NCBI RefSeq assembly: GCF_004323635.1
Contig: NZ_CP036515.1
Coordinates: 1,123,501-1,187,500 of the forward strand
Source: Lichenihabitans psoromatis
Lineage (GTDB): Bacteria > Pseudomonadota > Alphaproteobacteria > Rhizobiales > Beijerinckiaceae
DNA: 64,000 nt
Direction: 5' to 3'
This document shows positions 13,288 through 44,322 of the stretch, one piece after another. Made by a program: the position numbers and the translations under genes. Below the pieces are notes generated by a model, which saw nothing but the letters and a program-made list of their open reading frames with translations, did not search any database and was not told the DNA's origin. How positions within the stretch are numbered: the first letter of the stretch is position 1; each line of letters starts with the position of its first letter.

Positions 13288-14539
13288 CCTCCGCTTCGCT
13301 GACGAGCGACACGGCGATCTCGACCGCGCGACCGCCCGCCTCGGCTCGCACCAGATCGAACAACTCGTCGGTGCGCGAGCCGGCCGGCATTTTGACCCGG
13401 ATTTCGGCGAGATAATCGTCGATCAGTTTGGCGGCTTCCGGTGCCGCGCCCAGACGGCGGATTTCGCCTTCGAGTTGACCCGCGACGGTTGGATCGATCC
13501 CCTCACCGCGCGTCGCCAGAGGCTGCGTACCGAGGTCGAGCTTTTCGAGCCAGACCGGGCTCGATAAGGTCGCCAGCAGAGCCTCGACATCGTCGCGCAA
13601 CCCGAAGCGATCGACCAGCAATCCGCCATGCAGCACCGACCGGCCAGAGAGGCGCAACCGCAACGCGACCGACCGGTCACCGGCCTCGACCCCGATGACA
13701 TCCAACCGCGCGCGCAGCCGTTCGAGGATCTCGCGACGGTCGGCCGCGCCCAACACATCGATCGTCTCCGATACCCATCGCACCTCGTCGAGGTCGCGGT
13801 GCACGCAGGACACGATCGTGCCGTCCACCACCTCGACCAGGGTCGCGCCCTTCGGCCCGGTCTCGCGCGGGTTCCGGCCCTGCAGGTTGCCGGGATAGAT
13901 CACATGCGGGTGCAGGTTCAGTTCGGCCCGCGTATGCACGTGGCCGAGCGCCCAATAATGGTAGCCATGATTGATAAGCTGCTCCAACGAGCACGGCGCA
14001 TAGAGCGCGTGATGGCCCTCGCTCCCGGCGCAGGCCGTGTGCAAAATGCCGATGTTGAAGACGTTGCCGACCGGCGCCGGATAGCCGAGCGCGAGATTCT
14101 CCGACACGTCGCGCTGTCCGAAGCTACGGCCGTGGATCACGGTCTCGATGTCGTCGAGCACGACCGTCTCGGCCTTGCGGTGGGCGAATCGATGCACGTT
14201 ATCGGAATAGCCGAGCTTGTCGGCGAAGCGATTTTCCGCGTCGTGGTTGCCGGCGATGAGGAACACTTTGATGTCCGCGTCGCGCAGCCGCCGCATGCCG
14301 CTGAGGAAATAGAGGCCGGTCTTGAAGTCGCGAAGATCGCCGTCGAAGACGTCGCCGGCCAGGATGACGAAACGGCATTGCTCCGCGATCGCCAGCGCCA
14401 CGAGATTGTCAAAGGCCCGCCGCGAGGCATGTTCGACCGCCGCCGCAAAATCAACCGACTTGCCGGAGAGACCCAGTAACGGGCTATCGAGGTGCAGATC
14501 CGCCGCGTGCAGAAACTTAAAGGCGCTGATGACGGTCAA
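13268..14539 (-). CDS. Metallophosphoesterase, YhaO/SbcD-like DNA repair nuclease
   Basis: A calcineurin-like phosphoesterase of 423 residues with the full set of metal motifs: DLHLDS (14-19), GD at 62-63 (AGDVFDG), GNHD (97-100), ILHT (165-168) and GHVH (199-202). This is the Mre11/SbcD fold, and the length and C-terminal helical extension match YhaO. It is the first gene of a two-gene operon with the YhaN-like ATPase. By analogy with Mre11-Rad50 the pair would cleave or resect DNA ends. The start ATG 14539 (MTVISAFKFLHAADLHLDS) leaves the usual 10 residues before the first motif. Confidence 0.9.
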   Translation of the reverse strand: MTVISAFKFLHAADLHLDSPLLGLSGKSVDFAAAVEHASRRAFDNLVALAIAEQCRFVILAGDVFDGDLRDFKTGLYFLSGMRRLRDADIKVFLIAGNHDAENRFADKLGYSDNVHRFAHRKAETVVLDDIETVIHGRSFGQRDVSENLALGYPAPVGNVFNIGILHTACAGSEGHHALYAPCSLEQLINHGYHYWALGHVHTRAELNLHPHVIYPGNLQGRNPRETGPKGATLVEVVDGTIVSCVHRDLDEVRWVSETIDVLGAADRREILERLRARLDVIGVEAGDRSVALRLRLSGRSVLHGGLLVDRFGLRDDVEALLATLSSPVWLEKLDLGTQPLATRGEGIDPTVAGQLEGEIRRLGAAPEAAKLIDDYLAEIRVKMPAGSRTDELFDLVRAEAGGRAVEIAVSLVSEAEDARAAG

Positions 14540-14768
14540 TCCCAGCCGGAGAGCTCACGAGAGGCGACGACGCCGGTGCGGCCGCCCGGATACCCGAGTG
14601 ACACTGAACGAATAGGGAACAAAGTTCAAGCCACATCGGCCAAAAACCGCGGTCGCTCGATGTCAGGGCGTTCGACCTCGAACGAGCGACACCACAACAA
14701 TCCGCAGCTACATCAATGAATTGAAGCAGCCAAGGCGCCAGAACATCTCATGAGTCGAAGGCGATGAG

Positions 14769-35739: not shown

Positions 35740-36330
35740 ATGGCGTCGCTCCCGGCCAACGCCGCGCGCGACGTCGTCAAGATGTTTGATCGGGCCGCCG
35801 AAGAGGTGGGCCGATCCGTCATCGGGGCCACTTTTCTGGTCGACGGCGTCGGCGGGCTGATCGTCGAGGCTGAAGCCTATGACCGGGACGATCCCGCCTC
35901 ACATAGTTTTCGCGGCGAGACCGGACGCAACGCCGCCATGTTTGGGCCGCCCGGTCACGCTTACGTGTACCGCTCCTACGGCATCCACTGGTGCGTCAAT
36001 CTTGTCTGCCGCCCAGGGAGCGCCGTGTTGTTGCGCGCCATCGAACCCACGATGGGCTTGGACGAGATGCGGGTGCGCCGTGGCAACGAGGCCGTGACGC
36101 TCCTCTGCAGCGGGCCGGGACGGCTCAGTCAGGCCCTCGGCATCACGGCCGCGCTCAATGGCCGATCGCTCGACCAGCCCCCCTTCACCCTGATCCCCAA
36201 CGACAACGCGCTCGACATCGTCTCTGGGCCGCGCATCGGCATCACGCGCGGAGCCGACACGCCGTGGCGGTTCGGTCTACGCGGGTCACGGTTTCTGTCG
36301 AAGCGGTTTCGCCCGGATCAGGTCGGCTGA
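35740..36330 (+). CDS. DNA-3-methyladenine glycosylase (AAG/MPG family)
   Basis: Base-excision-repair enzyme that removes alkylated purines. The 196 residues match the AAG family: GGLIVEAEAYDRDDPASHSFRG with the catalytic-position Glu in VEAEAY, GPPGHAYVYRSYGIHWCVN, LLRAIEP and the C-terminal ITRGADTPWRFG. It starts at ATG 35740, 17 nt after hflC and on the same strand, so read-through is likely. Its last 13 nt overlap the convergent peroxiredoxin gene. Confidence 0.93.
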   Translation: MASLPANAARDVVKMFDRAAEEVGRSVIGATFLVDGVGGLIVEAEAYDRDDPASHSFRGETGRNAAMFGPPGHAYVYRSYGIHWCVNLVCRPGSAVLLRAIEPTMGLDEMRVRRGNEAVTLLCSGPGRLSQALGITAALNGRSLDQPPFTLIPNDNALDIVSGPRIGITRGADTPWRFGLRGSRFLSKRFRPDQVG

Positions 36331-36974
36331 GGTACGATGCGGAGGTAGGGTGCGGGCGCGTCCCAACCGCCCGGATAAGCCTTTTTGGCGTCTTCGTCGG
36401 ACACTGAACCGGCGATGATGACGTCCTCGCCCGGCTGCCAATCGACCGGCGTTGCCACCTTGTGGGCGGCCGTCAGCTGGATCGAATCGAGCGCCCGCAT
36501 GATCTCGGCGAAGTTGCGCCCGGTCGACATCGGATAAGCCAAGGACAGCTTCACACGCTTGTCGGGCCCGATGATGAACACGGTGCGGACTGTGGCATTG
36601 GTGGCGGCGGTGCGACCCTCGGACGTGCCGTCCGTATCGGCCGGTAGCATGCCGTAGAGCTTCGAGACGGCAAGATCGGCGTCTCCGATCAAGGGGTAGG
36701 TCACGGCCGCGCCCTGCGTCCGTTCGATGTCGGCCGCCCAGCGATCATGCGACTCGACGGGATCGACCGACAGGCCGATCACCTTGGTGTTGCGCTTAGC
36801 GAAGTCGGGCGTCAGCTTCGCGACCATGCCGAGTTCGGTCGTGCAGACCGGCGTGAATGTCTTCGGATGCGAAAAAAGGATCGCGTATCCGTCGCCGATC
36901 CAGTCATGAAAGCTGATCCGGCCCTGGGTCGTGTCGGCCGTGAAGTCGGGGGCAATCTGTCCGATTTGTATCAT
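36318..36974 (-). CDS. 1-Cys peroxiredoxin (Prx6/AhpC-TSA type)
   Basis: Thiol peroxidase that reduces hydrogen peroxide and organic hydroperoxides. It has 218 residues from ATG 36974, chosen over ATG 36986 because GGAAG stands 5 nt before it and homologues start MIxIG. The peroxidatic cysteine is Cys44 in PKTFTPVCTTELG. No resolving cysteine is visible, which fits the 1-Cys Prx6 group. The C-terminal LRIVPQP end and the length beyond 200 residues also fit Prx6. It is a monocistronic gene convergent with the glycosylase. Confidence 0.93.
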   Translation of the reverse strand: MIQIGQIAPDFTADTTQGRISFHDWIGDGYAILFSHPKTFTPVCTTELGMVAKLTPDFAKRNTKVIGLSVDPVESHDRWAADIERTQGAAVTYPLIGDADLAVSKLYGMLPADTDGTSEGRTAATNATVRTVFIIGPDKRVKLSLAYPMSTGRNFAEIMRALDSIQLTAAHKVATPVDWQPGEDVIIAGSVSDEDAKKAYPGGWDAPAPYLRIVPQPT

Positions 36975-37117
36975 GCGGGCTTCCATTGGCTCTGATGCGG
37001 CTGCAAAGCCTAGTCAGTGAATAGACTTGACCAGAGCATGCCGGCTGGGTTTTGCCAACCGGGCTTCAGCCGAGGACCTTGTCGATTGGGCGACGCCGAT
37101 GATGGCGGCCCGATTGC

Positions 37118-38542
37118 TCACCGGGTCGCCGCAGCCCGATGCTGGCTGACGGCCTGCCCCGCATCGCGCCGCAAGCGCGCGAAAGCCGGAAGCGCCGTGA
37201 GAGCCACCAGACCAATAATCGCAAAGCAGAGCCGGAACGGGCCGCTCGGGTCGGCACCCTGCCCTGCCGGAAGCGCCTCAGCGATCCGCAGAACGATCGC
37301 GCCGAAGGCGACGCCCATCCCCAGCGCCAACTGAAACGCCATGTTGAATAACGTGTTGGCGGGGCCGGTCTGGCCGGGCTCGAGCTCAGCGAATGCCAGC
37401 GTGTTCAAGGCGGTGAATTGCATCGAGCGGCTGGCGCCGGCGACCATCAAGACCAGCACGATGACGGCGATCGGTATCGAGCGGTCGATCATGGCGCAGG
37501 CCGCGATCGAACTCGCGCTGATGACCGTGTTGGCCAGCAGCACGGTACGAAAGCCGAAGCGCCGCAGGATCGGCGTCGTAAGGGGTTTGATGGCGAGATT
37601 GGCGGCGCCATACCACAACACCAACAGGCCCGACGTGAACGCATCCCGCCCGAGCCCGACCTGGAACAGCAGGGGCAGAAGAAACGGCATGGTGCTGATG
37701 GTGATCCGCGCGATCAGGCCTCCATCCATGGTGACGCGGAAGCTCGGCACCCGGAACGCCTCGAGCGACACCAGGGGATGCGGGTGAGTGCGGGCACGCC
37801 GCAAGGCCAGCGTGCCAAGCGTGAGGCTGGCGATGAGAAACAGCGAGGCGATCCGCCAATCGCCTCCCGTCTGCCCGAAGCGCTCCAAGGCATAGAGCAG
37901 CGACGCAAGGCAAGACCCGTTGAGCACGAAGCCGAGCGCGTCGAAGGGGCGACGAGCTTCGTCCCGCCCAGCCTCGATCAATCGGAGCGCGAGCCCCAGC
38001 CCCATGATCCCGATCGGCACGTTGATGAAGAAGATCCAGCGCCAGGACGCTACCGTGGTGATGAACCCGCCGAGCGGCGGCCCGAGCACCGGCGCCGTCA
38101 GGGCCGGCCAGGTGAGCGTCGCGATGGCGCGCATCAGGTCCTGCTTGGCTGTGCCGCGCAGCACGACAAGCCGACCTACAGGCGTCATCAGTGCCCCGGC
38201 GGCCCCTTGGAGGATCCGCGCCAGGGTGAAGGTCAGCGTGTCGATGCTGAGGCCGCACAGGATCGAGGCGATGGTGAACAGCGCGACCGCGCTCGCGAAG
38301 ACAGGACGGGCGCCGTAGCGGTCCGCCACCCAGCCGCTGGCGGGAATGAAGACCGCGACGGTGAGCAGATAAGCCGTCATGCCGATCGCGAGCGACCCCG
38401 GCGTCGTGCCAAAGCTTTTCGCCATCTGCGGCAGCGCCGTCGCGATCACGGTGCCGTCGAGATTTTCCATGAAAAACGCGCCGGCCACCAGCAGCGCCAC
38501 CAAGGTGGACCGTTGCGGCACGAAGGAAGGGCTTGTCTGCAT
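37118..38542 (-). CDS. MFS transporter, DHA2 (EmrB/QacA) family
   Basis: A 474-residue inner-membrane drug/proton antiporter with about 14 helices. It has the DHA2 motif LDGTVIATALP (28-38) in helix 1 and the loop motif WVADRYGARP (71-80). Helix 5 has LGPPLGGFITTVASWRWIFFINVP, typical of the family. A partner membrane-fusion gene (emrA) is not adjacent. The exported substrate is unknown. The ATG at 38542 is the only good start. Confidence 0.9.
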   Translation of the reverse strand: MQTSPSFVPQRSTLVALLVAGAFFMENLDGTVIATALPQMAKSFGTTPGSLAIGMTAYLLTVAVFIPASGWVADRYGARPVFASAVALFTIASILCGLSIDTLTFTLARILQGAAGALMTPVGRLVVLRGTAKQDLMRAIATLTWPALTAPVLGPPLGGFITTVASWRWIFFINVPIGIMGLGLALRLIEAGRDEARRPFDALGFVLNGSCLASLLYALERFGQTGGDWRIASLFLIASLTLGTLALRRARTHPHPLVSLEAFRVPSFRVTMDGGLIARITISTMPFLLPLLFQVGLGRDAFTSGLLVLWYGAANLAIKPLTTPILRRFGFRTVLLANTVISASSIAACAMIDRSIPIAVIVLVLMVAGASRSMQFTALNTLAFAELEPGQTGPANTLFNMAFQLALGMGVAFGAIVLRIAEALPAGQGADPSGPFRLCFAIIGLVALTALPAFARLRRDAGQAVSQHRAAATR

Positions 38543-38632
38543 CCGTCACGCCGGGCCAGAGTCTGAAGGCCCCTTCTATAACACGGCCGACCCGCCCGCG
38601 AGCAACGACACGGCCGGGGTCATGGGGTTTGG

Positions 38633-41600
38633 TCAGCGAACCGAGCGCTTGGCTTGAACCACGACCTCCTCCGGCGTGGGCGGATTGGCGGGATGGTAGC
38701 TGAGGCAGATCGGTGTCCTGATCTTGGCCGGCTTGCCTGACTTTTCCGAGGCGAAGTAGAATTCGCCCATGGCCAGTCTGGCCACATCGTCGGCTGCGCC
38801 GCCCTTGCCGGCGATCAGATCCTTCACGCTGCCGATGTCGGTCGGGGAATTCTGCTTGCCGAAAAATTGTGTCGTGCAATTCGACACGATTTTATTGTCG
38901 ATCCCCTTCGGGGCCTGGGTCGCCACCACCATGCCGAGCCCATATTTACGCGCCTGCGCGAAGAGCCGGACGGCACTGCCGCGGCTGATCGCGGCATGGG
39001 CCGATGGCATGAAGTTCTGCGCCTCGTCGATCGCATAGAGACGCCCGGTCGGCGACGGGTTCTTCTTGATCCAGCTGAACAGCGTCATCTGCAGCCGGTT
39101 CACGAAATCCTCGCGCGCGGCATCGGACGCCAATCCAGATAGATTGATGACGGAGATCCGCGTGCGGCCGGCATCGGGCCCGTTGAACAGAAGTTTCGGA
39201 TCGAGCACCGGACCATCGACCCGCAGCAGCGGATTGGTCGCAACGGCCGCATGAAGCTGGTCGGCCATGCCGGCCGCCAATTTTGCGGCATTGCCGATCT
39301 CGCTGATGCCGTCCGGGAGATCGGTGAGCAGCGTTGTCATGGCCTTCAGATCGCCGCCGCCCTGCCCGGCGAAATAGCGCATGGCATCGGCCAGGACGCC
39401 TCTTTGCAACCCGTTCTTCGCGCCCGCCAACGGGGCGACAGTCTCGGTTGCCATCTCGCAGGCCTGATCGCGTTCGTCCAAATTATCGCCGAGACCGGAA
39501 AAATCCGGCAGCACCGACAGGAACAGCGGGTTGCCGGCCCGGACCCCGGGCGTCCAGACCACGACCTCGACCGTCTCGCGATAGCGAGCCGCCTTCTCGT
39601 CGTCATCGGGCGTGAAGCTGCCCGGCCGCTCCGGCCACGGGTCACCGAGCCGCGACAGATCATTGTTCGGATCGATCACGATAGCCGGGATTCCAGCGAG
39701 AGCGGCCTCCTCGATCAACCGACGCAGCAACACCGTCTTGCCCGACCCCGTCCCCGCGATGATCGCAGTGTGGCGCGGCAGCAGCGCGAGCGGCAGGCTG
39801 ACGGCCTCGCCACCCACCGCCATGCGATGACCGATCACGATGGCGGTCGGCGGAACCGCGACCAAGGGCGGCGCAACCGCGCGTTTTGTCGGACGTTTCG
39901 GCTCGGTCAACGGTGCGGCGACGGGCGAAACCGCTTCTGCGACATGCTCGAGCTCTAAGGCCTCGACCGGAGGAGCCGGCATCGCATCCATCACGTCCGA
40001 GACCGATGTCCCCGGCGGCGGGCAAAGACCCGCTTGTTTGAAGAACGCCGTGTCGCAGAGCGGCTTGGTGGCACGCAGCCAGGTATCGAATTCGTTGCGT
40101 TTGCGATGGTTGGCTGCCTCGTCGCGCAATTGGCGAAGCGCCACGAAAGTCAGCAGATCATCCTCGCTCGGATCGATGATGCAGCCCCCTGCTTTCGTGA
40201 AGACCTCGACCATCTGCCGGGTCTTCACGCCACCCGGTACCGGAGCTTTTCGAATGATGAGCAGACGGCGGTCGGCCATGTCGGCCGTAATCCCCGATGC
40301 GGTCAAAGCAGCCCTCAACCGCGACTGGAACGCATTGGCATTGGTATGTTCGAGAGCGCGGTAGCAATAGTGCCGCTCCCGGTCGCTTTCGGCATGGAAC
40401 GTGAAAGTCAGCCTGCCGTGCAGGGGCGGCGTCCGCTGCGCGGAATCACCTTTGGCTTCCACGTCGATCGCCTCGTCCGGATCGATCTGCACGGCGTAGA
40501 GACCAAAGACGCCGCGCAGCAGGCGACCGAACTCGCCATCGTCGTCATTCTGGATCAGGCCGGCGATATCGACCTGCCGGCGCATCGCCTCGAGATCGAA
40601 GAGCGGCGTCTGCGGCCCGGTGTCTTCTATCAACTGATCGGCTTTCGGCACGACCGGGAGAAGAATGTCGCAGAGCTCGATGCGCGCCTCGTCGATACAG
40701 TGGCGGCGGAAAGCGTCGCAGCGCATCAGGATGGCGCGAGGCGTCATTCCGCGCCCCGTCGCATTGTCGATCGCGGCCTTGCTGAACGGCCAGGACGGAA
40801 AGGCGGGCGTGAACGCCACGGCCGCATAGGCCGGCGTCAACCGGCTGACGATCAGGTTTTCGATGTGGGCGCGGTCGCCCATGCCGAGCAAAGCCGTCTG
40901 CGGTTGAAAGCGATGCACGGCAGAGTCAAGCGCGTGAGCCTTGATGCGCTCCCAGGAATCGTAGAGGCACGTGACGACCGTCATGCTGCGGTGGAGGACG
41001 TCGTAGAGCTCCAGCAGCCCCGCCGCCAGCACCTCGCCGATCGGTTGCGCCGGACGACCGTCCTCGCTGAGGCGGTGCTGAAACATATTGCTCGGAATGA
41101 CGATACTGTCGATCTGATCGACAGCGACCAGCGTCGGGCCGGCAAGACTCATGATCCAGGACATGCCGCGCACCAGTTCGACATGGGTCGGAGGCGCGCC
41201 TTTGAAGCCGAGCTTCCGCCCGGTGTCTTCCTCGGCCTCGTAACCTTGCAGCCAGCTATGCGCGAAGCTCATGGTGCCGGCATGGTTGGACCGGAGCAGC
41301 GCCAAGGCTCGGAACACGTCCTGATGCCGCAGCGCATTGACGCGATCGCCTCGCATCAAGCCACCCACCAGAAGATCGACGATCTTGCTTGGATCGATAT
41401 TCGGGGTTTCGAAGGCCTCATGGACCTGTCGCTCGATCTGAAATCGGCGCGCGACCCCGGCCAGCACCGCCTCATGCTGGCGGCGCCCATCCGGCATCTC
41501 CTGCAACAGGGATGTCAGGAAACTCAGCGCGGCGCTCTTCCAGAAATCCGTGACGCCGAGAATGTCGAGCAGCACGAACCAGCCGCCCCCGTCCCAGGTG

Positions 41601-41836
41601 CGTCGGCGCAAGGTGCCGACCAGATGCGTCTTGCCAATCCCGGCTGCTCCAACCAATACGTGACCGGGCGGCTTGGTCGAGGTCTCTTTCGTCTTTCGGA
41701 AGAAATCCGCGACGAGGCTGTCGAGCAGAGCTTCGTTGGGTCCGCCAACCGTCGTATCGGCATCGCTCCAGACGCTTTCGAGTGATCGGAGCCAACCGAA
41801 ATCGGCATCGCGCAGGGCGTCGAGAGCGAGGCTCAT
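38633..41836 (-). CDS. Double P-loop ATPase with HerA/FtsK-type C-terminal motor (DUF87-like)
   Basis: A 1067-residue protein of unrecognised function. The N-terminal AAA/STAND-like module has Walker A GAAGIGKTH (63-71) and Walker B LVAVDQID (236-243). A middle part (about 410-630) has no motif I can assign. The C-terminal HerA-like motor has Walker A GTGSGKT (695-701), Walker B LYAIDEAQNF (933-942), and ATQAPKGID (972-980), the arginine/sensor region typical of HerA. HerA motors are hexameric DNA translocases, and the first P-loop may act as a switch. The start overlaps the stop of the partner gene by 4 nt. BREX-like or other defence functions are possible, not shown. Confidence 0.7.
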   Translation of the reverse strand: MSLALDALRDADFGWLRSLESVWSDADTTVGGPNEALLDSLVADFFRKTKETSTKPPGHVLVGAAGIGKTHLVGTLRRRTWDGGGWFVLLDILGVTDFWKSAALSFLTSLLQEMPDGRRQHEAVLAGVARRFQIERQVHEAFETPNIDPSKIVDLLVGGLMRGDRVNALRHQDVFRALALLRSNHAGTMSFAHSWLQGYEAEEDTGRKLGFKGAPPTHVELVRGMSWIMSLAGPTLVAVDQIDSIVIPSNMFQHRLSEDGRPAQPIGEVLAAGLLELYDVLHRSMTVVTCLYDSWERIKAHALDSAVHRFQPQTALLGMGDRAHIENLIVSRLTPAYAAVAFTPAFPSWPFSKAAIDNATGRGMTPRAILMRCDAFRRHCIDEARIELCDILLPVVPKADQLIEDTGPQTPLFDLEAMRRQVDIAGLIQNDDDGEFGRLLRGVFGLYAVQIDPDEAIDVEAKGDSAQRTPPLHGRLTFTFHAESDRERHYCYRALEHTNANAFQSRLRAALTASGITADMADRRLLIIRKAPVPGGVKTRQMVEVFTKAGGCIIDPSEDDLLTFVALRQLRDEAANHRKRNEFDTWLRATKPLCDTAFFKQAGLCPPPGTSVSDVMDAMPAPPVEALELEHVAEAVSPVAAPLTEPKRPTKRAVAPPLVAVPPTAIVIGHRMAVGGEAVSLPLALLPRHTAIIAGTGSGKTVLLRRLIEEAALAGIPAIVIDPNNDLSRLGDPWPERPGSFTPDDDEKAARYRETVEVVVWTPGVRAGNPLFLSVLPDFSGLGDNLDERDQACEMATETVAPLAGAKNGLQRGVLADAMRYFAGQGGGDLKAMTTLLTDLPDGISEIGNAAKLAAGMADQLHAAVATNPLLRVDGPVLDPKLLFNGPDAGRTRISVINLSGLASDAAREDFVNRLQMTLFSWIKKNPSPTGRLYAIDEAQNFMPSAHAAISRGSAVRLFAQARKYGLGMVVATQAPKGIDNKIVSNCTTQFFGKQNSPTDIGSVKDLIAGKGGAADDVARLAMGEFYFASEKSGKPAKIRTPICLSYHPANPPTPEEVVVQAKRSVR

Positions 41837-42501
41837 GGCATGATCCAGAGAACGTGAAAGGGTTCGCCGGCGGGATCGTAAGCGGCCTCGCGATCGGCGG
41901 CCGTCAGCGCATTCGGATTGTTGATCCGCATCAGCCGCGCCTTTTTGTCCCCCGCCAGGATGCGCCCAAAGGCGTCGTCCACGGTCGCGCGATCGAAGGC
42001 CGAGAGATGGGCGCGAATATCACGAAGCGGCGCACTTTCGCCGGTCTTGCCGCCCGTGATCGCCAGATAGGCTTGACCGATCTTGCGCCGCATCCCGACG
42101 GGCGTCAGCGCTCGCGCCGACCCCGATCGACCCGCCGCGCGCGGGGATTTCGGCAGTGGCTCGGCCGCCTCGGGCAAGGGGCCGACGAATTCGGCCAGGG
42201 TTTCGCCATGCTGCTCGAGGTGGGCCGACAGCAGGCCGAGCCAAGCCCGCAGCACCTGATAGGCCGGCGGCACGGCGTCGGTCAGATGCGCGGCCGCCCA
42301 TGCCCACCCCTTGTCGTCGAGCTGCAGCAGCAGCGCGCCACGGGCCTGCCTGCTGACTTTGATCAGGCGCCGCGCTTCAAGCTGCTCACGATCGGCTTTC
42401 GCGACCTCGGGCAGGATCGCGCCTTGAAGGGCCTGACCTTTTTGGCCAAGCAGCGACCAGACCAGAAGCGTCTGGCGCGGCGTCAGTCCGTCATCACTCA
42501 T
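41833..42501 (-). CDS. Partner protein of the HerA-type ATPase, winged-helix-like
   Basis: A 222-residue protein of unknown function. I start it at ATG 42501 (MSDDGLTPRQTLLVWSLLGQ); the open frame to 42591 adds 30 residues of unlikely sequence. The N-terminal part (LTPRQTLLVWSLL, REQLEARRLIKVSRQ, ALLLQLDDKGWAWAA) looks like a winged helix. A second such unit may be at the C-terminus (GMRRKIGQAYLAI, LSAFDRATVDDAFGRIL, EPFHVLWI), separated by a Pro/Ala linker. It is translationally coupled to the ATPase gene and likely binds it or DNA. Confidence 0.6.
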   Translation of the reverse strand: MSDDGLTPRQTLLVWSLLGQKGQALQGAILPEVAKADREQLEARRLIKVSRQARGALLLQLDDKGWAWAAAHLTDAVPPAYQVLRAWLGLLSAHLEQHGETLAEFVGPLPEAAEPLPKSPRAAGRSGSARALTPVGMRRKIGQAYLAITGGKTGESAPLRDIRAHLSAFDRATVDDAFGRILAGDKKARLMRINNPNALTAADREAAYDPAGEPFHVLWIMP

Positions 42502-42526
42502 GGGCTTGGCCTTCCACCGCGACGAT

Positions 42527-42570
42527 CCGATCGATCGATCGGTCGGTCCGGGCCGACCTCTAAGGTCGGC
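42527..42570. promoter_or_regulatory. 16-bp palindrome and adjacent hairpin upstream of the HerA cassette
   Basis: 42527-42542 is a perfect palindrome CCGATCGATCGATCGG, 25 nt upstream of the partner-gene start. Beside it 42552-42570 forms GCCGACC-tctaa-GGTCGGC. Position suggests an operator or leader structure for the two-gene cassette. The hairpin has no T tail in either direction, so it is not a convincing terminator of rsmB. Confidence 0.4.
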
Positions 42571-42664
42571 GCGGTGACGCAAGGGAAGCATTCAGCACGA
42601 CAGGGTTATGACAGGCCAGGATCGCGCGGTGCGACACCGACGCCGAGGCTTGGCCCGACGAGCC

Positions 42665-44077
42665 TCAGGCTTTGCGGACGAGGCGAGCCGCGAAGAACCC
42701 GTCGAGCCCCACGAGCGGCGGCTCGTCGAGCACCGAAAAAAACGGCAGCGTGCGAAGGTCGCCGGCCGGCGTCACGCAATCGGACCAACCGCCGACCTCA
42801 TCGGCCGTGATGGGCACGCGCGCCACATCCGGGTTGCGCCGCAACAGGCTGGCGATCTGCGCTTCGCCCTCCTCAGGCTCCAGCGAGCAGACGCAATAGA
42901 CGAGCGTGCCGCCGGGCTTCAGCAACCCGAGCGCCCGATCAATCATGCGGGTCTGCAAGGCCGCCAGCGACACGATATCCGAGGCGCGCTTGGTCCAGGC
43001 CACATCGGGGTGACGGCGGATCGTTCCGGTCGCCGAACACGGCGCATCGAGCAGGATCGCGTCGAAGGGCTCGGCGGAAAAACCCGCGACATCGGCCACC
43101 TCCGTCTCGGCACTCATGCCCAGCCGTTCGAGGTTGACGGCGAGGCGCTTGAGCCGCTCGGCCGAGCGATCGACCGCCACAACATGGCCGCCTGCCGCGA
43201 TCAATTGCGCGGTCTTGCCACCCGGCGCGGCACAGAGATCGGCGACCCGCTGCCCCGCCTCGACGCGCAGCAGCCGCGCCGGCAGCGAGGCGGCCGCATC
43301 CTGCACCCACCATTCCCCATCGGCGTAGCCGGCGAGGTCCGGGACCGGCACATGGCTGGTGAGGCGAAGGGAGCCGTTCGGCAGGCGCGTCGCCTCGAGC
43401 GCTTCGGTCCAGCGCGCGACATCGGCCTTGACGGTGATGTCGAGCGAGGGCTCGATGCGATGCGCCAGCGCGATCGCGGTGGCTTTCGCATCCCCATAGG
43501 TCTGCCTCCAACGCGCGGCCAGCCAAGCGGGCGTATCGGCAAACGGGTCGAGGTCGGCGGGGCCTTCGGGCGCCCGGGCGAGATTACGCGCCACCGCATT
43601 GGCGAGCGCCGCGAAGGGCTGACTTTTCGGGTCGGTCCGCACCGCGAGGACGCAGAGATTGACGGCCGCGTGATCCGGCACGTCGAGGAACATGATCTGC
43701 GCCGCCGTCACGACGAGAAACCACTCGAGGTTGCCGCTCCGCTTGGGCAGCCCGCGCTCGAGAAACGCCGCAAGCGCCTTACGGATGGTGCCGAGGCGAC
43801 GCAGCGACACGACCACGATCGAGCGCACCAGGGCGCGGTCGCGCGGTTCCAACGCGTTGAGCTTGGACTGCGTGGTCTCGCTGCCAAAGGCCTCGTCGAA
43901 CCCATGTCCGGCGCCGATCACGTCGGCCAGGATCGCGGCGGCGATCAGGCGGGCCGGCAAACCGGGTGGGTGCTCGACAGGCGCGGCGGCCGGCTTCGCC
44001 CAGGACCCGGCTCGAGATCCAGACCGCGGCTTGGCCCGGTCGCCGGTGATGTTCTGCGGACCCGTCGGTTTATTCAT
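42665..44077 (-). CDS. rsmB: 16S rRNA m5C methyltransferase, RsmB/NOP2-Sun family
   Basis: Methylates a cytosine of 16S rRNA (C967 in E. coli) with SAM. It has 470 residues from ATG 44077, chosen because AAGGA lies 4 nt upstream; the frame is open to 44239. An N-terminal NusB-like helical domain covers about 40-180. The SAM loop is LCAAPGGKT (281-289), motif IV is DAPCSATGTIRRHPD with Cys347, and the nucleophile Cys397 is in VCSLEPEEGE. The short basic N-terminus (KPTGPQNITGDRAKPRSGSR) is not conserved. It stands divergent to sdhAF4. Confidence 0.93.
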   Translation of the reverse strand: MNKPTGPQNITGDRAKPRSGSRAGSWAKPAAAPVEHPPGLPARLIAAAILADVIGAGHGFDEAFGSETTQSKLNALEPRDRALVRSIVVVSLRRLGTIRKALAAFLERGLPKRSGNLEWFLVVTAAQIMFLDVPDHAAVNLCVLAVRTDPKSQPFAALANAVARNLARAPEGPADLDPFADTPAWLAARWRQTYGDAKATAIALAHRIEPSLDITVKADVARWTEALEATRLPNGSLRLTSHVPVPDLAGYADGEWWVQDAAASLPARLLRVEAGQRVADLCAAPGGKTAQLIAAGGHVVAVDRSAERLKRLAVNLERLGMSAETEVADVAGFSAEPFDAILLDAPCSATGTIRRHPDVAWTKRASDIVSLAALQTRMIDRALGLLKPGGTLVYCVCSLEPEEGEAQIASLLRRNPDVARVPITADEVGGWSDCVTPAGDLRTLPFFSVLDEPPLVGLDGFFAARLVRKA

Positions 44078-44322
44078 TGCATCCTTCATCCCACGGTCGG
44101 CGACCGTGGATTCGTCATTCATCCGACCCAACCAGACGACGACCAAACGACGTTCCCCGCCTTCGATCGATGCGCCTCGACCGCAGAACGACGCGCCAGA
44201 ACCGCCCATGCGAGGGTCGCGCCAGTGACAGAACGGCACGCGACGCCCTATGTGAGCGACAGTGGTCGTGACTGCAAAGTCTCGAATGAATCAGTTTGAT
44301 CCCAAAAGTGGGTGGAAGCGTG

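Follow-up and report, generated by a model that had tools for sequence, protein, structure and literature searches.

A HerA-type ATPase and its partner in Lichenihabitans psoromatis belong to an operon that includes a DUF559 nuclease gene in related bacteria

Background

What kind of system is encoded by a long ATPase gene and a small gene that overlaps it, lying next to rsmB in a 64,000-nucleotide (nt) stretch of the Lichenihabitans psoromatis genome (contig NZ_CP036515.1, positions 1,123,501 to 1,187,500; the whole stretch is hereafter called the window)? An earlier note, made from the letters of the window, had presented the two genes as a two-gene cassette, in which a double P-loop HerA-type ATPase is joined to a winged-helix-like partner, and as a candidate for an undescribed system. 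Motors of the HerA family act as hexamers that pump double-stranded DNA; the DUF559 family has the restriction-endonuclease-like fold. Both families meet in the present locus: the operon of its relatives consists of three genes, coding for a DUF559 nuclease, the partner and the AAA+/HerA ATPase. We consider it fairly probable that the window retains the genes for the translocase and the adaptor from a three-gene capture-defence operon that has lost its nuclease gene.

Results and discussion

A third gene in the operon of relatives

Homologs of the ATPase and of the partner (expectation value, E<=0.001) numbered 959 and 66 proteins, respectively, far beyond chance. Fifty loci were fetched from named genomes, with others besides. 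The partner is present in 40 of these 50, once (L095) as a partial gene at a contig edge; among the ten loci lacking it, the ATPase is cut by a contig edge in eight and the operon is damaged in two (L084 and L091). The neighbourhood check proposed earlier bears out that the two genes are conserved together.

Clustering of the neighbouring proteins over 61 regions (L034 and L061 are one place counted twice) produced one unexpected family of about 350 amino acids (aa; range about 310-390 aa), which occurs in 42 of the 61. Its members carry a C-terminal DUF559 (Vsr-like) domain, above the Pfam cut-off in all five proteins scanned; MTES_1575 also matched. The core residues D255, E266, D268, H272, D281, R284, D285 and R297 (numbered as in L061) are invariant in 20 of 20 aligned sequences, and 3hrl of the PDB, an “endonuclease-like protein”, is matched (E 1.8e-8).

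The layout of the operon was counted in 47 loci, excluding L093-L102, which lie at or derive from contig edges; L084 and L091 fall out, leaving 45 loci with both partner and ATPase. The nuclease gene stands directly upstream of the partner gene in 44 of these, two actinobacterial loci included, with L087 as the sole exception. In 42 of the 44 loci the two genes are spaced by -8 to +13 nt (exactly -4 in 23); the larger distances in L066 and L074 arise because the match overruns a stop that precedes the nuclease gene, and the gene itself ends at the partner. Partner and ATPase genes overlap by exactly 4 nt in 39 of the 45 loci. What had been called a two-gene cassette is in relatives a three-gene operon, whose nuclease is missing from the window genome. 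The analysis defines a recurrent DNA translocase–nuclease operon that none of the tools used has a name for.

The triad occurs in Alphaproteobacteria, mostly Hyphomicrobiales, and in Actinomycetota. Plasmid-collection records of Nonomuraea (ATPase 35.9% identical, 91% of the query covered) and Tsukamurella (44.4% identical, 36% covered) contain it; in the latter the genes, annotated as DUF559, hypothetical and DUF87, show 4-nt overlaps. The ribosomal genes rplN and rpsQ enclose the Tsukamurella triad (L105, 4241-9209) along with other genes, and a VapB/PIN-domain pair lies beside it. The damaged operon of L084 (9579-12109) has an internal deletion that brings a nuclease fragment up against ATPase residues 344-1064, and the partner is not found. 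In L086 (10001-13212, Methylobacterium sp. UNC378MF) the ATPase match is split between two frames at residue ~240, apparently by a frameshift.

Absence of the nuclease from the window

Eleven nuclease queries gave no tblastn match at E<=1e-3 in the 64-kb window, including the gap between partner and rsmB where relatives have the nuclease gene, and a profile of 20 rows gave none in the whole window genome at E<=0.001. The same profile recovers the full gene in a genome of the same genus, G406, at 1.2e-123. One query produced a 30-aa match with a stop elsewhere in the genome, which was taken as that query's over-extended start; the profile gave none there. Apart from the operon, the window genome has a lone DUF559 (PF04480) match (G000:C1:1702359-1702571), which exceeds the cut-off and lies in an open frame of 1655 aa.

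The ATPases of 60 rows were placed in a FastTree tree, a quick one with long branches; nuclease status could be read from rows that came as loci, whereas 14 rows were protein sequences only. In this tree the window is paired with Lichenihabitans sp. PAMC28606, and the two are nested among nuclease-bearing rows; the nuclease is present in rows that branch before this pair (L061, L044, L075, L045, L051, L052 and the two actinobacterial rows), and the fork that unites the window with its 47 adjacent rows has a support of 92. With the window nested in this way, loss is the simpler reading, and the nuclease has probably been lost from its operon. L087 represents another case of loss; no nuclease is seen in its sister L017 either, but there the contig stops ~0.6 kb past the partner. 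The pair of L087 (9396-13132) has a HerA Walker A motif without its lysine and threonine.

The ATPase and its partner

Both open reading frames (ORFs) proposed earlier are real, with the partner gene upstream of the ATPase gene on the minus strand (Table 1). The partner is taken to start at the ATG at 42501; the open frame would permit a protein of 252 aa from 42591. Its stop-start overlap with the ATPase gene, ATGA, is 4 nt long, as the earlier note had it. The ATPase gene is present once in the 4.84-Mb genome; apart from it, only 53 residues at the second P-loop find a match there.

Table 1. Position of the pair, of the ATPase domains and motifs, and of the flanking features in the window
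Feature	Position	Strand	Basis
ATPase gene, 1067 aa: AAA+/STAND-like module, middle domain, variable linker, HerA-type DNA translocase	38633..41836	-	ORF, Pfam, alignment
AAA+/STAND-like module, residues 1-400	40637..41836	-	AAA_16, PDB profile matches
First Walker A, GAAGIGKTH, residues 63-71	41624..41650	-	
First Walker B, VDQID, residues 239-243	41108..41122	-	
Middle region, residues 400-640: a conserved domain, in which several arginines are invariant, followed by a variable linker	39917..40639	-	
HerA-type translocase domain, residues 655-1067	38636..39874	-	DUF87, PDB profile matches
HerA Walker A, GTGSGKT, residues 695-701	39734..39754	-	
HerA Walker B, LYAIDEAQ, residues 933-940	39017..39040	-	
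Partner gene, 222 aa, upstream of ATPase: N-terminal part perhaps winged helix-turn-helix, variable linker, conserved C-terminal domain	41833..42501	-	
Gap between partner and rsmB, 163 nt; site of the DUF559 nuclease gene in relatives	42502..42664	-	
rsmB-type RNA methyltransferase gene, upstream flank	42665..44239	-	A relative annotated RsmB/NOP family
MFS transporter gene, downstream flank	37118..38542	-	Label of the earlier note alone

The double P-loop architecture of the ATPase is confirmed. Both nucleotide-binding sites are invariant in 23 aligned sequences including that of the window (G63-G66-G68-K69 with D240-Q241, and G695-G697-G699-K700 with D937-E938). In the C-terminal half, Pfam places DUF87/HerA at residues 678-731 above the cut-off (E 1.4e-10), and solved structures matched include 9x1l (“DNA helicase”, 6.1e-16), 8wiv (1.7e-15) and 4d2i (HERA, 2.5e-15). 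The N-terminal module matches AAA_16 at residues 39-116 with E 1.7e-7 and 32.3 bits, just under the cut-off of 32.6, together with weak AAA+ matches in the PDB (best E 0.0014), which do not separate the AAA+ clades by sequence. The middle part, left without a family by the earlier note, has no Pfam match and a best PDB match of only E 0.19, and profile-profile comparison of the nuclease, the middle domain and the AAA+ module with one another revealed no relation. The N-terminal half of the nuclease might conceivably be an inactivated P-loop domain.

The partner likewise stays without a family, as no Pfam, PADLOC or NCBIfam model matches it at E<=0.001, and it is less conserved than the ATPase. 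A winged-helix-like nature is hinted at by weak matches, of positions 11-72 to a chain of AspA (E 0.75) and of the L051 partner to HTH_27 (E 0.016).

Constraint on the remaining pair

Loss of the nuclease could have broken the system, in which case the pair of the window would be a decaying remnant drifting to extinction; such an end is compatible with a defence role for the family as a whole. We therefore counted departures from the columns that are invariant in a set of reference rows, from which L087, L017, L104 and L105 were excluded. The window departs at 0 of 43 columns in the N-terminal module, 1 of 27 in the middle domain and 1 of 113 in the HerA domain, and both of its frames are intact, which argues against decay; nuclease-bearing rows of the same reference depart at 0 to 9 columns per domain. 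The nuclease-less L087, short of the K and T of the HerA Walker A motif, departs at 20 of 112 HerA columns, which lends the remnant reading some support. Part of the divergence of L087 is explained by distance alone, since 8 departures are counted in its sister L017 and 21 in the distant L105, which has the nuclease.

Comparison of the window with PAMC28606 shows 22 differences among the 1067 residues of the ATPase and 10 among the 222 of the partner. Fourteen of the 22 differences cluster in two short stretches, 391-405 and 616-644, which we read as linkers; this also is not the pattern of a remnant. These comparisons, in which the window ATPase retains its conserved residues, speak for a pair that is still constrained in both genomes, which in the case of PAMC28606 does not yet mean constraint without the nuclease. 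Decay of the window copy appears rather unlikely on this evidence, and the pair has most likely kept its ability to bind and move DNA.

Distribution of the operon

The spread of the operon is patchy. Relatives of the ATPase (E<=1e-60) were found in 4 of 397 genomes of the order, 22 of 397 of the family (its own included) and 2 of 6 of the genus, and a phylum-wide search with the Tsukamurella ATPase at the same threshold found the window genome and one other among 398. The C-terminal domain of the partner was found in 13 genomes out of 298 drawn from the family, and each of these is among the 22 with the ATPase. The second copy in the genus, that of G406, is a full triad away from its rsmB, and it groups with Methylobacterium rows, and not with the window, on a long branch.

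A HerA module that matches solved HerA chains, encoded alongside a nuclease, would also suit a machine for DNA repair and end-processing like HerA-NurA, in which the ATPase pumps broken chromosomal DNA to the nuclease for resection and the window species copes without the latter. The patchy occurrence in family and genus speaks against such a role, as does a G406 copy that is not sister to that of the window. Moreover, the nuclease is of the DUF559 type with no NurA match, and the operon has an added AAA+ module as well as a partner less conserved than the ATPase. We regard repair as an unlikely function of the operon.

Comparison with described systems

As a whole, the pair matches no described system in Pfam, PADLOC or NCBIfam. 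HerA-DUF4297, HerA-SIR2 and HerA-NurA are systems in which a HerA translocase is paired with an effector enzyme. The operon has in common with them a HerA protein and an effector, the latter being DUF559 in relatives, whereas its AAA+ module and partner are additional. Membership in any of the three was rejected: neither the pair of the window nor the five relatives' nucleases scanned, which match DUF559 and MTES_1575, gave a match to NurA, DUF4297 or SIR2.

MADS consists of an eight-gene mad operon. The PADLOC mad8 profile matches the HerA part of the ATPase at 9e-27, and also 4 of the 128 control proteins described below; a scan of ten genes around the pair gave a single match, of mad2 to rsmB (window 42665-44239, 6.6e-25). 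Membership was rejected, since these two profiles are unspecific and there is no multi-gene mad operon among the ten genes. Matches of this kind to control proteins and to rsmB mean that the two profiles can yield false defence calls.

The closest resemblance is to the predicted Orc/CDC6-HerA/FtsK “capture” systems, for which the main text of PMC10853773 lists an Orc/CDC6 ATPase, an inactive restriction endonuclease (REase), an active REase, HerA/FtsK and a winged helix-turn-helix (wHTH) in varying arrangements. According to the same text, the inactive REase is inserted between the AAA+ core and the wHTH, the parts may be distributed over one or several polypeptides, and an extra, fast-evolving small wHTH protein is sometimes present. 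Our operon shares the HerA/FtsK translocase (DUF87 and 4d2i matches, as above). In place of an assigned Orc/CDC6-family AAA+ it has the AAA_16 match just under the cut-off and the weak AAA+ structure matches; a conserved middle domain occupies the place of the inactive REase insert (best PDB match E 0.19), and for the wHTH there are the weak AspA match of the partner and the weak HTH_27 match of the L051 partner. AAA+ and HerA are fused in one chain. An active REase is lacking in the window copy and its genome, and relatives have DUF559 in 44 of 45 loci, which may or may not correspond to one of the two REase families of that paper. With the translocase present throughout and the active REase in relatives only, the family appears to operate in the manner of a capture system, of which it may be an example, with the copy in the window as an incomplete member; the operon gives this predicted class a compact form, open to testing in laboratory Methylobacterium or Rhodopseudomonas. 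The earlier suggestion of an undescribed system holds for the operon as a whole, and not for several of its parts, which resemble those set out in PMC10853773.

DndFGH combines a P-loop protein, a wHTH protein and HerA and can stand without modification genes (PMC10853773, main text), a likeness that the present operon shares in so far as its partner is a wHTH protein. Membership was rejected, as DndH is matched only weakly (E 0.015 and 0.055) and DndF and DndG are not matched. BREX-related capture (BRC) systems comprise an ORC/Cdc6 ATPase, HerA/FtsK and a fast-evolving DNA-binding protein (PMC12839542, main text), a make-up that the operon resembles; none of its three proteins, however, matches the PglZ, DUF4007, TGT or GNAT of BRC systems. 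The term DUF559 is absent from the main texts of both papers, as are Vsr and MTES_1575 from that of PMC10853773, and a literature search outside which most subscription papers lay found no paper on an operon of DUF559 with a HerA/DUF87 ATPase.

Proposed mode of action

From the families to which the proteins belong, we infer complex formation, translocation, cutting and a role in defence. In the full system, nuclease, partner and ATPase would form one complex, which the N-terminal AAA+/STAND-like module and the partner would load onto invader DNA; the HerA module would pump the double-stranded DNA, and the nuclease would cut what is fed to it. Such a “capture” defence would resemble restriction and be directed at the DNA of phages, of plasmids or of conjugation. 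In the window, cutting would be gone or else supplied by an unrelated nuclease. Defence is suggested by the patchy spread, the odd place of the G406 copy and the existence of a published HerA/FtsK capture class.

Several observations weigh against this explanation. The genes neighbouring the operon show no clear enrichment in PADLOC defence matches: from 250 listed neighbours, the two nearest on each side were taken and seven redundant loci removed, giving 146, of which two very long ones were dropped; the remaining 144 had 19 member-family matches at E<=1e-10 (13 families), compared with 18 (5 families) in a control of 128 proteins that is not organism-matched, consisting of the window genes and five rsmB regions of one genus. 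DrmC, PDC-S44, MkoB and SspA/DndA were each matched by a single neighbour and are missing from the control. The operon contains no modification enzyme by which self DNA might be spared, and no experiment on the operon was found in the literature search. At E<=1e-10 the ATPase has no match among 50,697 phage records, and a peptide-pattern scan of viral contigs confirmed no copy. Finally, PAMC28606, which is not among the best 120 of 434 nuclease matches that were listed, may or may not lack the nuclease as well.

Partner-like domains in large proteins

A domain like the C-terminus of the partner is also found in a 2198-aa protein encoded near a triad in Methylobacterium sp. J-088 (L146 10474-17067, minus strand, with the domain at 14335-14592; L088 1-4551, minus strand). 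The window partner finds this protein by tblastn at E 1e-17, with 41% identity over residues 110-219. Its stretch is also 41% identical to the C-terminal domain of the window partner, a value inside the 25-57% range of true partners; the high profile score of the J-088 stretch was disregarded because the stretch was itself a row of that profile. The protein carries an InPase domain (E 1.5e-48), a characteristic of polyvalent proteins from phages and plasmids. The second, weaker case (E 2e-3) is a large SNF2-related protein on the Rhodovastum atsumiense plasmid RHOApe (L130 6001-6240). No occurrence of the L088 domain was confirmed in viral contigs. In these large proteins the domain may serve as a decoy, or it may be a DNA-binding domain that they share with the partner.

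Its occurrence in two large proteins that resemble those of mobile elements, and that of the ATPase in 3 of 72,556 plasmid records (E<=1e-20), would fit a function of the mobile element itself, in DNA transfer, partition or competition, and not in defence of the host. Against this, no further neighbour family is as widespread as the triad (transposases and relaxases were not searched for one by one among the neighbours): the cluster next in frequency, for the most part an antisense artefact, is seen in 15 of the 61 regions, and later clusters in at most 12. The lack of copies in phage records and viral contigs counts against this alternative too, which we find very doubtful.

The natural nuclease-minus copies raise the question of whether such motors interfere with DNA without cutting it. 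Conceivably, the nuclease-less pair represents a second mode, maintained by selection after the nuclease was shed, in which invader DNA would be clamped or stripped without being cut and to which mobile elements would respond by carrying adaptor-domain decoys; we put this forward as a speculation that is quite unlikely to hold in full.

Surroundings of the pair in the window

The earlier remark that the pair is without mobile signs stands for the immediate locus, and not for the operon, given its patchy spread and a same-genus copy, in G406, that groups with Methylobacterium. In the nearest genus relative by rsmB (G513, 79%), the stretch from rsmB to the next shared gene carries other genes and no ATPase match. 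When window 36318-42664 was compared with the corresponding L116 10415-15284, none of the window proteins from that stretch was matched in this relative; the next shared gene downstream (window 35740-36330) is, we presume, glycosylase-like. Among the best 20 of at least 60 direct repeat families and 25 of 97 inverted pairs, nothing convincing brackets the pair. The longest bracket among those listed is an inverted pair of 40 nt, 73% complementary, whose arms lie within both flanking genes.

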